Assembly: GCF_000756715.1 (NCBI RefSeq)
Contig: NZ_CCSE01000001.1
Coordinates: forward strand, 372,001-436,000
DNA length: 64,000 nt
Reading direction: 5' to 3'
Origin: Jeotgalicoccus saudimassiliensis
Lineage (GTDB): Bacteria > Bacillota > Bacilli > Staphylococcales > Salinicoccaceae
Both the position numbers and the translations under genes were made by a program. The notes beneath the pieces were generated by a model. It worked only from the letters and a program-made list of their open reading frames with translations, was not told the origin of the DNA and did not search any database. Below, in pieces: positions 17,421 to 36,516 of the stretch; position 1 is the first letter of the stretch; each line of letters begins with the position of its first letter.

Positions 17421-18086
17421 ATGAAAAAAGAAATAGCAGTAATCGGACTTGGCAGATTTGGCGGCAGTATTGTCATGGAGTTAAGCGAAATGGATGCCGA
17501 AGTGCTGGTCATCGATACAGATGAAGCGAGAGTTAATGAATATCAGGAGTATTATTCCGAAGGTATTATCGGAGATTCGACAGACGAAGCCATGCTGAAA
17601 AGCATCGGGATTCATAATTATGACAATGTCATAGTTGCAATCGGCGATAATATTCAGGCAAGTATTCTGACGACGCTGATACTAAAAGATCTCGGTGTAG
17701 AAAAGGTAACCGCAAAAGCACAGAACGCATATCACGGCAGAGTGCTTGAGAAAATCGGCGCAGATATCGTCGTGCATCCGGAACGTGATATGGGACGCAG
17801 AATTGCACACAGACTGGTGTCTTCAGCAGTAGTTGAATATTTGGAAGTATCGAGCAGTCATTCAATTATTGAATATAGTGCCAATCTAAAACTTGAGAAT
17901 AAGAGAATTAACGATCTGAACCTTAAAGACAAGTTCGGTATCAGTATTATTGCCATTAACAGGGATAACGATATTATCGTCAGCCCCGACGGACAGATTA
18001 CAATACTGACAGGGGATATACTGATTCTTATAGGCAGCGATGCACAGCTGAACAACTTTGAGAATACAATGGAACGTCTTAAATAA
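17421..18086 (+). CDS. ktrA: Potassium uptake RCK subunit (KtrA/KtrC)
   Basis: 221 residues, the size of cytosolic Ktr gating subunits. The N-terminal RCK_N Rossmann domain has GLGRFGGSI (G9-x-G11-x-x-G14) and an acidic residue at the end of strand 2 (VIDTDE) for nucleotide binding. The C-terminal RCK_C domain (about 140-220) binds c-di-AMP in relatives. It assembles as an octameric ring on a KtrB-type membrane channel and gates K+ uptake by ATP/ADP. No ktrB is adjacent, as in S. aureus, where the subunit at this locus is also stand-alone. KtrA versus KtrC naming is uncertain. Confidence 0.88.
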   Translation: MKKEIAVIGLGRFGGSIVMELSEMDAEVLVIDTDEARVNEYQEYYSEGIIGDSTDEAMLKSIGIHNYDNVIVAIGDNIQASILTTLILKDLGVEKVTAKAQNAYHGRVLEKIGADIVVHPERDMGRRIAHRLVSSAVVEYLEVSSSHSIIEYSANLKLENKRINDLNLKDKFGISIIAINRDNDIIVSPDGQITILTGDILILIGSDAQLNNFENTMERLK

Positions 18087-18096
18087 GCAGTTATAT

Positions 18097-18135
18097 AAAA
18101 GCAGCATCTGTCCGAGACGGACAGATGCTGCTTTT
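18097..18135. terminator. Strong bidirectional terminator
   Basis: 18-bp perfect inverted repeat AAAAGCAGCATCTGTCCG with a 3-nt loop, between the convergent ktr and acetamidase-family genes. Confidence 0.85.
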
Positions 18136-18138
18136 GTG

Positions 18139-19047
18139 TTATTTAAAATGAATACCGTAATGATCGAGAATATAATTCGGAACAAAGTAGCGTGCAGTTT
18201 TTTTCGGGTCGACCACCTGATTGATTTCCGCCTGTCCGGCAAGACTCATCAGCATAGTAAATTCTTCCATACTTAAATCAGTTTTCGGCTGGAGGAGTTC
18301 TGCCATTTTACGAACAGAAGTATCGACAGCTGTATCGAGACTTTCATCGGAAACATTGAGGTAGATACCGTCTCTGTTAATGATGACCGGGTGTTCTGTT
18401 TTGAGGATTTCGGCTTTCTCAAATGTAACATTGACATTGGCAGTGACCTCAAGACCGGAAACACTGACTTCACCGTCTGCCATTGCAGCGTGAACGTCAC
18501 CGAGTCCGAACAGAGCACCGTCATGATACACAGGCAGGTACAATGTAATACCCTCTGCCATTTTAAGTGAATCCAGATTTCCGCCGTGAGTATCCGGTGT
18601 ACCGTTATTTACCGGAGTATCCGGCGGTGCAACTCCAATGACACCAATCATTTTGTTTACAGGAATTGAAAGGCCGTTAAAGTCGACTCTATTATTAGTC
18701 GTATCGACATCGTAAATACGCACGAGTGAATTTTCCAGTATATCACCCATAACGCCCATACCGGGACCGGTAACCATCACGCCGGTGTCTGATATGTCGA
18801 TTTTGTTAATTGTTACTTTTAAAACATCTCCGGCATAAATACCATCTATGTAAATAGGACCTGATGCGGGATTAATTCTTTCCCAGTCGAGTCCGCCGAA
18901 CGAACTTTCCTCGTCTGTAATTTGGCCTGTAAAGCAGTCGTGTGTTTCAATATCGACAGTATCCCCGAGGCTGACTTTTAATGCTGGTTCATTATCTTTG
19001 CTCATTGCATAGAAAAGATTATCTTTTGAAAGCTTGTGATGTGACAT
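18139..19047 (-). CDS. Acetamidase/formamidase family protein
   Basis: 302 residues starting MSHHKLSKDN at 19047. GGAGGAGG lies 7 nt upstream, which favours this ATG over an in-frame ATG ten codons earlier. The sequence fits the FmdA/AmdA fold: an early V-x-I-x-(T)-H-D-C-F-x-G segment, NPASGPIYIDGIYAGD, GVIGVAPP and a late GDVHAAMADGEVSVSG with the conserved acidic/His cluster. Members hydrolyse short amides (formamide, acetamide) to ammonia plus acid. Formamide is also the HutG product, so a metabolic link to the gene at 10.0 kb is possible, but this is inference. Confidence 0.85.
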   Translation of the reverse strand: MSHHKLSKDNLFYAMSKDNEPALKVSLGDTVDIETHDCFTGQITDEESSFGGLDWERINPASGPIYIDGIYAGDVLKVTINKIDISDTGVMVTGPGMGVMGDILENSLVRIYDVDTTNNRVDFNGLSIPVNKMIGVIGVAPPDTPVNNGTPDTHGGNLDSLKMAEGITLYLPVYHDGALFGLGDVHAAMADGEVSVSGLEVTANVNVTFEKAEILKTEHPVIINRDGIYLNVSDESLDTAVDTSVRKMAELLQPKTDLSMEEFTMLMSLAGQAEINQVVDPKKTARYFVPNYILDHYGIHFK

Positions 19048-19108
19048 TGAAGTTCCTCCTCCATAATATGTATTCATCTTTCATTATAGAGTAAACAAAA
19101 TTAAAGAC

Positions 19109-19134
19109 AAAAAAAGCACCGGAGGACCGGTGCT
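19109..19134 (-). terminator. Terminator of rpoY-rnjA
   Basis: Minus-strand stem AGCACCGG / CCGGTGCT with a 4-nt loop followed by seven T (A run 19109-19115 on the plus strand). Confidence 0.85.
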
Positions 19135-19143
19135 CTGAATATA

Positions 19144-20823
19144 TTATTTATCGTCGTTAACTCTCATAATAATTGGAAGAATCATCGGACGGCGTTTCGT
19201 TTTGTTGTAAAGGAAGCCGCTTAGTTCTTCAATAATCAGCTGTTTGACGTTGTACCACTCAACATTTTCTTTCGAATCGAGCAGAGTTCTGACTTCGTCA
19301 CGGATTTTTTTCTCTGCGCTGCGGATCAGTCCGTACGATTCTCTCATATAGACAAAACCGCGGGAGATAATATCCGGTCCGCTTAACAGTTCGCCGGTTT
19401 CAAAATCGATTGTCAGGACTACGATTGCAAGACCTTCTTCAGACAACGATTTACGGTCGCGGAGAACGATGTTACCAATATCCCCGATGCCGTTACCGTC
19501 GACGAATACCGTACCTGCAGGAACGCGGTGTGAGAATCTTGCACTGTCTTTTGTCAGAGCAAGGACATCACCGATTTCAAAGACGAAAACATTTTCTTCT
19601 TTGACACCAGTAGATACTGCGAGTTTCTTATGCAGATCGAGCATACGGTATTCACCGTGAATCGGCATAAAGTACTTCGGCTGAATCAGGCGGAGCATTA
19701 ATTTCTGCTCTTCCTGTGAACCGTGTCCTGATGTGTGGATGTTTGAAAGTTTGCCATGAATAACATCTGCGCCTGCTTTGTATAAAGCGTTGATCGTTTT
19801 GTTGACACTTAAAGTGTTGCCCGGAATCGGAGATGAACTGAAGACTACAGTGTCATCCGGAATGATGCTGATCTGTCTGTGTGTACCGTTTGCAATACGG
19901 GACAGGGCAGCCATCGGCTCACCCTGAGAACCGGTACAAAGAATCATAACTTTATGCTTTTCAATCTTGTTAATCATCTTGGGTTCGATAAACGTCTCCG
20001 GCGGAGCAGTGATATAGCCGAGTTCCTGACCAATCTTAATGTTATTTTCCATGCTTCGTCCGAAAATACAAATTTTACGGTCAAATTTCACCGCTGCTTC
20101 AATGGCCTGCTGAACACGGTAAATGTTCGATGCGAATGTTGCAAAGATAATACGGCCGGTACATTTACGGAAGATATCCTCAACGTTCTGACCGACTTCT
20201 TTTTCACTGATTGTGAAATTAGGAACAGTGGCATTAGTCGAGTCGGAAAGAAGTGCGAGCACGCCTTCTTCACCAAGTTTAGCCATTTTTGCAAGATTTG
20301 CGGGTTCGCCGACCGGAGTGAAGTCGAATTTGAAGTCTCCTGTGTGAACGATGTTGCCTTCCGGAGTACGGACAATAACACCGTAGGCTTCAGGGATAGA
20401 GTGAGTTGTTAAGTAGAACTCAATATCCATGTGCTTAAATTTCAGAACTGTCTCTTCCTCGATTGGAATTAACTCAGTCTGATTAAGGAGGTGATGTTCC
20501 TCAAGCTTGTTGCGGATTAATCCTAACGCAAGCGGTCCCGAATAGATAGGCACTGAAATTTGTCTCAGCAGGAATGGAATACCGCCGATGTGGTCTTCAT
20601 GACCGTGTGTCACGATAAGTGCGCTGATTTTATCTTCGTTTTCTTTTAAGTAAGTGTAATCAGGAATTACGTAATCGACGCCAAGTTCATCATCTGTCGG
20701 GAACTTGACCCCCGCATCGATAATAATGATTTCATCTTTGTATTCGACACAATATGTGTTTTTCCCGATTTCTCCCAGTCCCCCAAGAGCGAATACACCT
20801 ACTTCATTTGATTCAAGTGTCAT
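19144..20823 (-). CDS. rnjA: Ribonuclease J1
   Basis: 559 residues, standard for RNase J1. The metallo-beta-lactamase core has H73-G-H75-E-D77-H78 for the two zinc ions, followed by the beta-CASP domain ([14 protein letters not shown]) and a C-terminal dimerisation domain ending in basic residues. It has 5'-3' exonuclease and endonuclease activity in mRNA turnover and 16S rRNA maturation. The start overlaps the end of rpoY at position 20823, so the pair is translationally coupled as in Bacillus and staphylococci. It ends at a clear terminator. Confidence 0.96.
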
Positions 20824-21041
20824 TACGCGATAGTCTCGACTTTGAAATCGTCGTTGTTGTTCTGTTCGTATTCCAGATGCGCGGGACTAAGTGCCTGGAT
20901 AAACTCGATGTTGTTATTGTTCGCTTTTAAATATTTACGAACTTCTTCTTCTGTTTCTGCTTCGACATAGCGGATCTGCGTGTCTTCTCTAATGATACGC
21001 GTGTCCATGTCTGTTTGGAAAAATACTTTAAATACTGCCAT
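20823..21041 (-). CDS. rpoY: RNA polymerase epsilon subunit
   Basis: 72 residues, the usual length of the DUF1447/YkzG family. The start MAVFKVFFQ and the phrase [12 protein letters not shown] are characteristic. Epsilon is a small accessory subunit of Firmicutes RNA polymerase with a phage Gp2-like fold. Gene position directly before rnjA, with a one-base overlap, is the conserved arrangement. Confidence 0.95.
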
Positions 21042-21087
21042 AATTTATGACTCCTTTATTAGTTATTATCATTATTAAATTAAACGT

Positions 21088-21124
21088 AAAAAATAAAAAT
21101 ATGTGCCTAAATATTTAAGCACAT
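21088..21124 (-). terminator. Terminator of the 31-codon gene
   Basis: Minus-strand inverted repeat ATGTGCTTAAAT / ATTTAGGCACAT (one G-U pair), then ATATTTTTATTTTTT. It lies upstream of rpoY, so it belongs to a transcript that starts further upstream. Confidence 0.65.
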
Positions 21125-21136
21125 TATTTAGGGAAC

Positions 21137-21232
21137 TTATTTACCCTTCATATATTCATTGCGCAATAAACCTTTTCTGCCCAGGATGCTTTTCAACTTT
21201 TTCATCAGTTTCTCTCGTAACCTTTTCAGCAT
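21137..21232 (-). CDS. Small cationic amphipathic peptide, 31 residues (unannotated type)
   Basis: An ATG at 21232 opens 31 codons ending in TAA. The peptide begins MLKRLREKLMKKLKSIL and carries 12 Lys/Arg against 2 Glu (net about +10). Leu2, Leu5, Leu9, Leu13, Ile16 and Leu17 fall on one helical face. The ORF sits in a complete transcription unit: promoter TTGCAA-17-TAAAAT (21289-21261), AAGGG about 9 nt before the ATG, and a terminator at 21124-21088. The hydrophobic/cationic pattern is reminiscent of membrane-active or RNA-binding peptides, but I recognise no family. The alternative is that the roughly 150-nt RNA is the functional product and the ORF is incidental. Confidence 0.55.
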   Translation of the reverse strand: MLKRLREKLMKKLKSILGRKGLLRNEYMKGK

Positions 21233-21260
21233 ACTATCACACCCTTATATACTTACTATC

Positions 21261-21289
21261 ATTTTACAATATAGACTCTGTACTTGCAA
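21261..21289 (-). promoter_or_regulatory. Promoter of the 31-codon gene
   Basis: On the minus strand, -35 TTGCAA (21289-21284) and -10 TAAAAT (21266-21261) are separated by exactly 17 nt. Predicted start is near 21254, about 22 nt before the ATG. Confidence 0.6.
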
Positions 21290-21322
21290 AGACTTTATAA
21301 TAGGAAGAGGGGAGGGGAAACT

Positions 21323-21595
21323 GTGAAGATAGAACAGATAATGACAAAGGTTAAAAATGAGAAGATGCGAAGCGATAAAATGTTCACGGGTATAGAGTTC
21401 AATGTGCGGGATGAACAGGTGGTCATGAACTATGTTTATGCGGACTACGGAAGCGGTGAGGGTACGAATACCGAGATGTACATGCCGCACGGTGGGGACC
21501 CGGAATTTATCAGTGAGGAAGAAATGAATATGCTCATTGAGAAACTGCGCGATAAAAATATTGGATATAATATCAGAAAAGACGATTTTATTTAA
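21323..21595 (+). CDS. Conserved hypothetical protein, 90 residues
   Basis: The GTG at 21323 is chosen because GAGGGGAGGGG lies just upstream; the frame extends further 5' without a ribosome site. The product is acidic and soluble with no signal or membrane segment. It has alternating strand-like segments (MFTGIEFNVRDEQVVMNYVYADY) and a C-terminal helix, EEEMNMLIEKLRDK. I do not recognise a domain. A small gene at the same place before def in S. aureus is my recollection. It converges on def through a shared terminator. Confidence 0.7.
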   Translation: MKIEQIMTKVKNEKMRSDKMFTGIEFNVRDEQVVMNYVYADYGSGEGTNTEMYMPHGGDPEFISEEEMNMLIEKLRDKNIGYNIRKDDFI

Positions 21596-21601
21596 CAGAG
21601 C

Positions 21602-21634
21602 AAAAGACGGCACCCGGTAAAGGTGCCGTCTTTT
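21602..21634. terminator. Bidirectional terminator
   Basis: 13-bp perfect stem AAAAGACGGCACC / GGTGCCGTCTTTT with a 7-nt loop, between the hypothetical gene and def. Confidence 0.85.
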
Positions 21635-21645
21635 ATACTGTCATT

Positions 21646-22197
21646 TTACTCGAGCGGCTGTGCGTCGCCGGTCGGATCGAATGGTGCTTCTTTATTAATG
21701 TGATCGTAGAACATAACCCCGTCAAGGTGATCGAGTTCATGCTGCAGTACGACAGCCAAAAAGCCTTTGGCTTTAATTTCGACTTTTTCACCGTCAATCG
21801 ACAGCCCGCTGACGCGGATGCGCTTCTTACGCTGTACGATGCCTTCAATTTCCTTATCCACACTCAGACAGCCTTCGCCGCCCGGTAAATAAGTTTCATT
21901 AACAGAATGACTGATTACTTTCGGATTGATCAGCATATAATCATATTCCGGATCTCCGTTCTCATCTGTCACGTAGACAGCAAGCATACGCTTGTCGAGA
22001 CCAATCTGCGGCGCGGCAAGTCCGACACCGGCTCTCAGTCCGTATTTTTCACTCAACTCCGGATCCTGTGAATTGATAAGGTATTCCCTCATACTTTTCA
22101 ATTCTGATATAGTCTGTGGGTCAATTTCAGCCACTTCTCTTACTTTTTTACGCAGTATCGGATGACCGTCGCGTACAATATTTTCCATAGTCAGCAC
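21646..22197 (-). CDS. def: Peptide deformylase
   Basis: 183 residues, the length of the staphylococcal/Bacillus type II enzyme. All three motifs are present: G-V-G-L-A-A-P-Q, G-E-G-C-L-S and Q-H-E-L-D-H, giving the Cys and two His that bind the catalytic Fe2+. It removes the formyl group from nascent proteins. The start MLTMENIVRDGHP matches the S. aureus protein, and GGAGG precedes it. It stands alone and is divergent from the ykyA-type lipoprotein gene. Confidence 0.96.
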   Translation of the reverse strand: MLTMENIVRDGHPILRKKVREVAEIDPQTISELKSMREYLINSQDPELSEKYGLRAGVGLAAPQIGLDKRMLAVYVTDENGDPEYDYMLINPKVISHSVNETYLPGGEGCLSVDKEIEGIVQRKKRIRVSGLSIDGEKVEIKAKGFLAVVLQHELDHLDGVMFYDHINKEAPFDPTGDAQPLE

Positions 22198-22307
22198 GAT
22201 AAAACCTCCTCCGTTTCAAACACTCGGTTTATTATACAATATATTTGCGTTAAAATGGTATTGGAAATACTGTTAAACAATTAAATTAACATGGGGGTAC
22301 ATTTTAG

Positions 22308-22937
22308 GTGAAGAAACTTATTTTAATGCTGGGCGGAGCGGCACTGTTTTTATCTGCGTGCAGCAGCGCTGAGGCGGAACTGAACGAATTTTATGATGCA
22401 TTCACGGGGAGCCTGAGTGAAGAACAGGGACTTGGTGAACTGAATGACCAATATAATGAACTTGAAGGTAAGAAAGCATCACTTCAGGAAGATCTGAACA
22501 ATGCTGACATTGAAGCAATTAATAATATCAGCGGTGAGCTTCAGAGTAACACGTCGGAACGCCTTGACCTGCTCGAAGAAGAACGCGGTCTGATTGCAGA
22601 TTCAAAAGAAGCTTTTGAAAAAGCACATGAAAAAGCGGAAGAGATTTCCAATGAAGAGTATAAAAAAGAAGCAGACTCTTTAGTCGCAGCGATGAATGCG
22701 CGTTTTGAGGCGCATGAAACGATGACTGATACATATACAGAAGCACTTGAAGCAGAACAGGCACTTTTCGAGTATTTAGGTGAAGAAGAGATTACTCAGG
22801 ATGCAGTCGACGAGCATTTAAACAAAATTGCAGAGTACAGCGAACCGATTAACGAAGCGGCAGAAACATTTTCGGCAGAAACGGAAAAAATTAATCAGCT
22901 GAAAGGTGAAATTGAACAAATCCTTGAAAACAACTAA
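22308..22937 (+). CDS. ykyA: YkyA-type putative cell-wall-binding lipoprotein
   Basis: 209 residues from a GTG at 22308 with GGGGGT upstream. The signal peptide ends in a lipobox L-S-A-C (Cys18). The mature part is almost wholly helical and acidic, with long Glu/Lys/Ala-rich coiled-coil stretches, which matches the YkyA family. Position directly before pdhA is conserved in Bacillus and staphylococci. It should be lipid-anchored outside the membrane. Function is not known. There is no terminator that I can see before the pdh control region. Confidence 0.82.
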   Translation: MKKLILMLGGAALFLSACSSAEAELNEFYDAFTGSLSEEQGLGELNDQYNELEGKKASLQEDLNNADIEAINNISGELQSNTSERLDLLEEERGLIADSKEAFEKAHEKAEEISNEEYKKEADSLVAAMNARFEAHETMTDTYTEALEAEQALFEYLGEEEITQDAVDEHLNKIAEYSEPINEAAETFSAETEKINQLKGEIEQILENN

Positions 22938-22940
22938 GAA

Positions 22941-22969
22941 TTTAAAAGTGTTACTATAACAGTTATAAC
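22941..22969 (+). promoter_or_regulatory. Possible upstream pdh promoter with palindrome on the -10
   Basis: TTTAAA and TATAAC are 17 nt apart. The perfect palindrome ACAGTT-AT-AACTGT (22959-22972) covers the -10, as an operator would. Confidence 0.4.
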
Positions 22970-23033
22970 TGTACTACTACTGAAAATACTGACATATCAA
23001 CTCTGTTCCAAACTGTTATACCTTAGCTTGGTT

Positions 23034-23049
23034 TACTGTTAGAACAGTA
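23034..23049 (+). promoter_or_regulatory. Operator-like palindrome upstream of pdhA
   Basis: Perfect inverted repeat TACTGTT-AG-AACAGTA, 54 nt before the pdhA ATG. It has the same ACTGTT/AACAGT half-sites, in the opposite orientation, as the palindrome at 22959. A further AACTGTTAT half-site lies at 23011-23019. TTGGTT and TGATAA flank it as poorly spaced promoter candidates. Confidence 0.4.
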
Positions 23050-23096
23050 GTGTGATAAACTGAAGGTAATAACAAACAAATTAGAAGGGATTGTGA

Positions 23097-24209
<1,113 letters not shown>

Positions 24210-24211
24210 TT

Positions 24212-25189
24212 ATGGCACAAATGACGATGATTCAAGCTATTACTAATGCTATGGCAACAGAACTTAAAAATGATGAAAACGTTCTTGTTTTTGGTGAGGA
24301 CGTTGGTGTTAACGGCGGGGTATTCCGTGCAACAGAAGGTTTGCAGGAAGAATTCGGTGTTGACCGCGTATTCGATACACCACTTGCAGAAAGTGGTCTG
24401 GTGTCATTAGGTTTAGGCTTAACTTTAGAAGACTACCGCCCGGTAGTTGAAATACAGTTCTTCGGTTTCTTATTTGAAGCGATGGATGGTATTGCAGGAC
24501 AGATTGCACGTCACAGAATCCGTTCAGGTGCATCGAAGTCTGCTCCAATCGTTATCCGTGCACCATTCGGCGGCGGAGTTAATACGCCTGAACTGCACGC
24601 AGATTCACTGGAAGGTCTGATGGCCCAGACTCCAGGTTTACGTGTTGTTATCCCGTCAAACCCGGTAGATGCAAAAGGTCTGCTAATTTCAGCGATTCGT
24701 TCAAATGATCCTGTCATTTTCCTTGAGCATATGAAGTTATACCGTTCATTCCGTGAAGATGTTCCTGAAGAGGACTACGAAGTGGAAATCGGTAAAGCAA
24801 GCGTTAAACAGGAAGGTACTGACATTACACTGATCGCTTACGGTGCAATGGTCCAGGAAGCAATGAAAGCTGCAGAAGCGCTTGCTGAAGAGGACGTGAG
24901 TGCGGAAGTTATCGACCTTCGTACTGTTTCACCTGTTGATTACGAGACGTTAATCGAATCTGTTAAAAAGACAAACAGAGCAGTAGTTATCCAGGAAGCA
25001 CAGCGTCAGGCCGGTGTTGCAGCAAACGTCGTATCTGAATTATCAGAGCGCGCAATTCTGCACCTTGAAGCACCGATTAAACGCGTTACTGCACCGGACA
25101 CAGTATATCCATTCACTGCAGCTGAAAGTGTGTGGCTGCCGAACAAAGATGATATCATTGAACGTGCAAAAGAAGTGCTGGATTTCTAA
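24212..25189 (+). CDS. pdhB: Pyruvate dehydrogenase E1 beta subunit
   Basis: 325 residues, normal length. It begins [31 protein letters not shown] contains the conserved Glu near the thiamine ring, followed by FDTPLAESG and the C-terminal transketolase domain ([11 protein letters not shown]). It forms the alpha2-beta2 E1 heterotetramer with PdhA. AAAGGAG at the end of pdhA serves as its ribosome site. Confidence 0.96.
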
Positions 25190-36235: not shown

Positions 36236-36516
36236 AACTTAAAGCGTTGAAGGGAACTTCGATATTGCAGAGCATTTTCAGAGACCGGGTGGATGGTGTG
36301 AATCCGGAATGCAGCAGTTGAGAATCTCATCCCTGAGTGCCCGGCTGAAAAGAAGTAGGCAGGGACGGGTTAAAACTCGTTATTAATTTTAACTGGTTAT
36401 GCCAGTTGCAGAGGTATGCACAGAAATGTGTGTACAAATTTGGGTGGTACCGTGAAAGCTCCTTTCTCCCCATTGATCATGATTACAATGATCGATAGGG
36501 AGAATGGAGTTTTTTA
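36236..36516 (+). ncRNA. T-box riboswitch leader of the ilv-leu operon
   Basis: Within this 592-bp gene-free stretch (35956-36547) the leader shows the AG-bulge region AGAGACCGGG pairing with CCCGGCTGA, the distal GGATG / CATCC helix, and the T-box sequence TGGGTGGTACCG (36441-36452). An intrinsic terminator follows (36459-36516): CTCC-TTTCTCCC and TTGATCAT arms pair with their complements and lead into six T. Uncharged tRNA binding at the T-box would favour the antiterminator and let transcription enter ilvB. Gene context implies a Leu, Ile or Val tRNA. I could not read such a codon at the expected specifier place (after CTGAA the triplet is AAG). Confidence 0.9.

Follow-up and report, generated by a model that had tools for sequence, protein, structure and literature searches.

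A short gene for a strongly basic peptide, encoded upstream of rpoY and rnjA on the same strand, is almost certainly a real, selected small-protein gene that is common to many families of the Bacillales. We came upon it in Jeotgalicoccus saudimassiliensis, within the stretch of 64,000 nucleotides that was analysed as a whole and is here called the window; its distribution is wider than the original prediction had proposed, and it is presumably expressed. As to its function, we give a chance of roughly one in two (0.5) to a trans-acting, basic amphipathic helix within the RNA polymerase epsilon/RNase J module. Such a helix would dock in trans onto RNA or a negatively charged partner in this module and would tune transcription or RNA turnover, while its place as first operon gene in some clades, and as a terminated mini-gene in others, could set its dose relative to RpoY. 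Should Bacillus subtilis 168, of all Gram-positive bacteria the best studied, indeed encode next to the genes for RNA polymerase epsilon and RNase J1 a 23-aa protein that is conserved over many families and has gone unrecognised (relative only to the libraries and literature searched), then the role of epsilon and the setting of the RNase J1 level, both poorly understood, may have a peptide partner or a translated leader in common.

Layout of the locus

On the minus strand of the window a promoter-like site, a ribosome-binding site, a 31-codon ORF and a terminator-like hairpin are followed by rpoY and rnjA (Table 1). The first four had been predicted in this very order, with the promoter as TTGCAA-17-TAAAAT, along with 12 Lys/Arg and two Glu among the 31 residues, and both statements were confirmed in the sequence. 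Promoter-like sites in the region number six, against 4.3 (sd 2.0) in shuffled sequences, which alone is not significant, and a 31-codon ORF is by itself unremarkable where 85 ORFs of at least 25 aa overlap positions 18000-25000. Since promoter-like sites are no commoner than in shuffles and short ORFs lie everywhere, the claim had to rest on comparison. The peptide gene is present as a single copy in its own genome; the 15-base block TATAAAGTCTTTGCA has one exact copy in the window, and its extended pattern occurs once in the genome.

Table 1. Features of the peptide locus, with coordinates in the window.
Feature	Position	Strand	Remarks
-35-like hexamer TTGCAA	21284-21289	-	overlaps conserved block 21285-21299
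-10-like hexamer TAAAAT	21261-21266	-	17 nt from TTGCAA
15-base block TATAAAGTCTTTGCA	21285-21299	-	near-invariant in the Jeotgalicoccus/Salinicoccus/Lacicoccus family; overlaps the -35
Ribosome-binding site AAGGGTGTG	21238-21246	-	from sequence; immediately 5' of ATG
Basic-peptide ORF, 31 aa, MLKRLREKLMKKLKSILGRKGLLRNEYMKGK	21137-21232, including stop codon	-	ORF list, conservation, coding selection
Short hairpin with the peptide stop codon in its loop	21130-21147	-	weak in the window copy; stronger in several relatives
Intrinsic-terminator-like hairpin and U-rich tract	21091-21124	-	hairpin 21124-21101, then ATTTTTATTT
rpoY (RNA polymerase epsilon)	20823-21041	-	constant downstream neighbour; PF07288, E 7.2e-22
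rnjA (RNase J)	19144-20823	-	same strand, directly 3' of rpoY

Conservation in the window's own family

The family sample consists of 33 genomes, the window's own and 32 others, and represents Jeotgalicoccus, Salinicoccus and Lacicoccus (13 of 14 named loci). An intact relative of the 31-aa peptide lies upstream of rpoY in 25 of these genomes, starting with ATG in 21 and with TTG in four. Conservation of the ORF and its frame in related genomes, whose lack would have refuted the original prediction, is thus borne out by 25 of the 33 family members and, as described below, by 52 genomes elsewhere. Among the remaining eight, the ORF contains a stop codon in G014, is diverged or broken in G009, G018 and G021, and was not found upstream of rpoY in G010, G011, G015 and G019. 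Seen by genus, it is broken or diverged in four of six genomes of one (g2) and absent from three of another (g4), and by eye the promoter block and hairpin are still there in the loci of both genera that have no intact ORF.

The putative promoter of the peptide has a better case than it looks, owing to the conserved block that overlaps its -35: TATAAAGTCTTTGCA is identical in 32 of the 33 genomes and always starts 32 nt 5' of GTA[AG][AG]AT, and among the eight genomes with no intact ORF only G010 is without it. In three family loci (L062, L064 and L065), promoter block and terminator-like hairpin are kept with no peptide ORF between them, and, judged by eye, about 35-40 nt lie between the end of the hairpin and the start of rpoY, which is little room for another promoter.

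Distribution beyond the family and linkage to rpoY

A scan of a genome collection returned a 28-aa relative in Oceanobacillus luteolus, likewise between def and rpoY-rnjA. More generally, the DNA upstream of rpoY in other Bacilli holds a relative, usually of 23 aa, in 50 of 71 loci (L092 and L100-L169). When a profile was run over 119 loci upstream of rpoY, 75 (25 family, 50 other) scored 21-47 bits, with the scores of 26 sequences inflated because the profile had been built from those 26. The broken G014 copy reached 15.3 bits, the others at most 4.0 or no match, and the reverse strands of the same 119 stretches, serving as control, at most 5.7.

An alignment search of 299 Bacilli genomes found 56 with one match each (E <= 0.01), 52 of them outside the family. 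All 56 matches share contig and strand with rpoY and precede its domain match by 95-399 nt, and rpoY itself is present in 124 of the 299 genomes; in the 175 genomes of this sample that are rpoY-less, no peptide match was found. Fisher's test on this co-occurrence gives p 3e-26, uncorrected for relatedness, and since the sampled genomes are related the counts are not independent events. RNase J domains occur in 296 of the 299 genomes (the three without one are also without rpoY), and 172 genomes have RNase J, no rpoY and no peptide match, so that here the occurrence of the gene goes with rpoY and not with RNase J. The earlier suggestion of a nucleic-acid-binding peptide near the RNase J locus may hold and is close to our best guess, except that in the sampled Bacilli the gene's distribution follows rpoY. 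Among the loci checked, rnjA comes directly after rpoY on the same strand in all 51 from outside the family, where some genomes appear twice, and in all 25 from within it (L031-L055); for 46 of the 51 non-family loci the fetched flank also includes def.

The genus of G306, whose identity as Bacillus is inferred and which we call the Bacillus genus, has a peptide match in 42 of 44 genomes (E <= 0.1), with the ORF intact in all 42 (41 plus G220, read as L106). In G460, which we take to be almost certainly B. subtilis 168, the peptide is MLRKLRKKLRRQWNGMLRKKAIA, encoded at 1525122-1525190 on the minus strand with its stop codon extending to 1525119, and RNase J follows. Conversely, 68 of the 124 rpoY-bearing genomes sampled gave no peptide match, Staphylococcus-like ones included, so the peptide is dispensable for RpoY and RNase J as such. 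Upstream of rpoY in Staphylococcus-like genomes (an inferred assignment), the peptide was present in none of ten loci, and none of the 56 matches falls in that family. By eye, most of these leaders (L056, L058, L059, L060, L071, L074 and others) have a GTAAAAT-type -10 upstream, and several leaders without the peptide carry CCTAG...CTAGG arms near rpoY; possibly, the Staphylococcus-like leader is a separate leader RNA of rpoY-rnjA.

Coding selection and the predicted helix

A check for selection on homologues, as proposed at the outset, returned pN/pS values of 0.25 for the family (24 distinct sequences), 0.36 for other Bacillales (46 distinct) and 0.21 for the Bacillus genus (33 distinct), which are rough values, since every sequence pair entered the sum and synonymous sites have diverged strongly (pS 0.65-0.79). 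Third positions account for 52%, 49% and 57% of the mismatches, respectively. It is the conservation in 25 of 33 family genomes, together with the ratio of 0.25 and a terminator-like hairpin in 21 of 25 family loci against 4% of shuffles, that lifts the ORF above chance. The alternative of a small RNA with an incidental ORF would fit a short terminated unit, and also the three family loci that keep promoter block and hairpin without an ORF. Yet amino-acid constraint combined with free synonymous change is coding-type substitution, the frame is open in 113 distinct genomes, and Rfam gave no match at the peptide locus, either on the window or on 13 loci; we thus reject this reading as highly improbable.

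The N-terminus is the most regular part of the peptide. Positions 2, 5, 9, 13, 16 and 17, which had been pointed out as a Leu/Ile face of a helix, are hydrophobic in all 60 distinct N-terminal 18-mers, and positions 3, 4 and 8 are Lys or Arg in all 60. The column-averaged helical moment peaks at 100 degrees (60-180, in steps of 10; p 0.012 by column permutations). For single peptides the hydrophobic moment is mostly within that of shuffles, at p 0.39 for the whole window peptide and 0.08 for its residues 1-18, and at 0.037-0.24 for the others (six tests). AlphaFold, given an input alignment of only 21 near relatives, places a helix at residues 2-19 followed by a looser tail, with a mean pLDDT of 87 in the first block of ten residues and 77 in the second. 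Our prediction is an amphipathic helix that spans the first ~18 residues. Peptide length ranges from 23 to 43 (median 23, mostly 23-31), and the C-terminal tail differs by clade, being KK[ST]IA-stop in most, VPTT in an Oceanobacillus-like group and GLLxNEYMKxx in the window's family (GLLNNEYMKKD).

Across 116 loci the net charge is +7 to +13, and no long hydrophobic stretch is present. A hydrophobic face that carries Trp or Leu at position 13, on a peptide of such charge, would suit a membrane-active role, either as a cationic amphipathic helix on the inner membrane face or as a toxin or antimicrobial. Toxins are patchy in occurrence, however, whereas this gene gives one match per genome, always syntenic with rpoY, and its occurrence is housekeeping-like. 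Neither 50,697 phage records, queried only with the 23-aa B. subtilis peptide, nor 72,556 plasmid records, queried only with the 31-aa window peptide, gave a match, although queries this short have low sensitivity. Taken with the missing hydrophobic stretch, these results make a membrane-active peptide unlikely. Type I toxins and phenol-soluble modulins, which likewise are short amphipathic peptides, have a long hydrophobic span or a near-neutral amphipathic helix, and are patchy or mobile and often present in several copies. By its charge and its lack of a long hydrophobic span, as the original prediction had held, and also by its occurrence, the peptide falls outside these classes.

Promoter-like sites, ribosome site and terminator-like hairpin

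To describe the unit we used 116 loci (25 family, 50 other and 41 Bacillus genus), in which three genomes appear twice and 113 are distinct. A terminator-like hairpin lies within 75 nt after the stop codon in 100 of these, namely 21 of 25, 43 of 50 and 36 of 41, with shuffled sequences reaching 4%, 7% and 17%, respectively. Where found, its stem starts 0-15 nt past the stop codon. No terminator passes the criteria in the other 16 loci, among them four of the family (L041, L042, L044 and L047) in which a hairpin is nevertheless kept. In an alignment of 23 of the 25 family sequences, from the end of the ORF to the U tract, the terminator hairpin is the only consensus structure, with changes on both sides at three of its seven pairs. 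The ribosome site in other clades is often AAGGAGTGAT or AAAGGAGG; the longest exact match to AAGGAGGTGATC has a mean of 4.4 nt in the family, where it never reaches 6 nt, 5.8 nt in the other loci and 6.9 nt in the Bacillus genus, compared with ~3 in shuffles.

A second, shorter hairpin holds the peptide stop codon in its loop. Its arms differ among species yet still pair, in the window (21130-21147, minus strand) and in L040-L051. Shuffle tests gave p <= 0.05 in 11 of 25 family loci and p 0.235 for the window copy, and the hairpin stayed unaligned in the MAFFT alignment. We dropped it as a regulatory switch: it folds in many family loci, but the shuffle test is mixed.

Whether the peptide unit is transcriptionally separate from rpoY differs between clades. 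An own promoter-like site for rpoY, at a shuffle p <= 0.1, was found in 37 of 41 Bacillus-genus loci, 18 of 50 other loci and none of 25 in the family. In addition, the -10-like sequence ATATAATAGA follows the peptide unit in all 41 loci of the Bacillus genus. On these counts rpoY in the Bacillus genus seems to be served by a promoter of its own and the peptide unit to stand apart from it, so the original description of a unit separate from rpoY-rnjA is supported there; it does not carry over to the window's own family. In the family, none of 25 loci with such a site and four of 25 with hairpins that fail the terminator criteria make it likely that read-through produces rpoY-rnjA, and the peptide unit could stand at the head of rpoY-rnjA as its first cistron, followed by a terminator that leaks. 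Three Oceanobacillus-like loci (L157, L156 and L092) are among the 16 without a terminator after the ORF, which ends 31-163 nt before rpoY, and their peptides have a longer, different tail. From this arrangement, the peptide looks like the first gene of a rpoY-rnjA operon in that group.

Action in cis or in trans

These observations bear on a possible, if tentative, alternative, a cis-acting leader ORF whose translation decides RNA polymerase read-through into rpoY-rnjA; in one variant the ribosome would pause on the basic chain, or at the stop codon near the terminator stem. The strict position upstream of rpoY (56 of 56) agrees with such a leader, and a coding ORF directly upstream of an operon, with a terminator between them in 100 of 116 loci, provides two features of attenuation leaders, and where a terminator-like hairpin is found its stem begins within reach of a terminating ribosome. 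The lack of any rpoY promoter-like site above shuffles makes it likelier in the window's own family, and the three terminator-less Oceanobacillus-like loci speak for it too. On the other side, genes of Bacillus commonly have a terminator immediately behind the stop codon, and most Bacillus-genus loci carry a promoter-like site for rpoY past the hairpin. Furthermore, the peptides agree in the pattern of their N-terminus but, between clades, not in their C-terminus. As the C-terminus is the part of an arrest peptide that is under the strongest constraint, the idea of an arrest peptide is weakened. No alternative antiterminator fold was identified in the family alignment. A slippery A AAA AAG near the C-terminus was also considered and discarded as not conserved, judged by eye and from a codon table.

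For a peptide acting in trans, in turn, we count a constraint that spans the whole helix and leaves the tail variable. In the Bacillus genus a cis role is not needed, given that 36 of 41 loci have the hairpin and 37 of 41 a promoter-like site that serves rpoY separately. Against trans action stands that the peptide is never away from rpoY in 299 genomes, as a purely trans-acting gene might occasionally be, and that rpoY and rnjA are retained where it is missing. The broken or absent ORFs of g2 and g4, and the single-peptide amphipathicity that mostly stays within shuffles, count against it as well. A gene for a helix of ~23 aa sits beside epsilon in genomes from Jeotgalicoccus to B. subtilis 168, and in our sample only where epsilon occurs. 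One could go further and take this basic helix of ~23 aa for an overlooked modulator or small subunit in the RNA polymerase/RNase J system of the Bacillales, one that couples transcription to RNA decay, a proposal that we regard as speculative and rather doubtful.

Relation to known systems

Among known systems, SR1P of B. subtilis is a 39-aa peptide encoded on SR1 RNA and reported to modulate RNase J1 action via GapA. Like SR1P, ours would be a small peptide made in Bacillus from a short RNA with a terminator; SR1P has another sequence and locus, whereas the basic peptide is strongly cationic and always beside rpoY. Attenuator leader peptides, such as the uORF of vmlR, also combine a short ORF, a ribosome site and a terminator ahead of an operon. 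They differ in that here no antiterminator was found in the family alignment, constraint extends over the whole helix with a clade-variable C-terminus, and in the Bacillus genus the downstream rpoY comes with a promoter-like site of its own. SpoVM-type membrane peptides share an amphipathic helix of ~25 residues and a cytosolic origin, but our peptide is far more basic and its locus is not one of sporulation.

No relative of the peptide was returned from Pfam, NCBIfam, PHROGs or PDB sequences; the best PHROG had an E of 0.15, and among PDB sequences the sole hit was to 14 residues of ribosomal protein L1 (E 0.5). Order-wide matches of 14.0 bits were set aside as chance likeness to L1: among the matches listed, they cover profile positions 12-25, mostly in open frames of ~230-275 aa, and these positions also match ribosomal protein L1 in the PDB. 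A match in G104 (E 1.6e-4), of 12 residues within a 423-aa frame, was likewise taken as chance. Searching for the peptide's letters as text found no paper in the literature covered. In the parts available of PMC8266666, PMC10303841, PMC3297567 and PMC4409812 a small ORF upstream of rpoY is unmentioned, and the terms looked up do not occur in those of PMC5521070 and PMC8464778.

Neighbouring features of the window

The block TATAAAGTCTTTGCA is shared with a second, putative promoter. A divergent promoter-like site on the plus strand, TAGACT-18-TATAAT (21272-21301), overlaps the peptide promoter, and its -10 is overlapped by the block as well; as this block is common to both and unchanged in 32 of the 33 genomes of the family, use of one promoter may preclude use of the other. 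On the same strand follows a divergent 90-aa gene (21323-21595) with a GTG start and a purine-rich ribosome site, for which neither Pfam nor NCBIfam gave a match. Elsewhere in the window, a T-box leader lies at 36238-36475 on the plus strand (Rfam RF00230, 97.8 bits).
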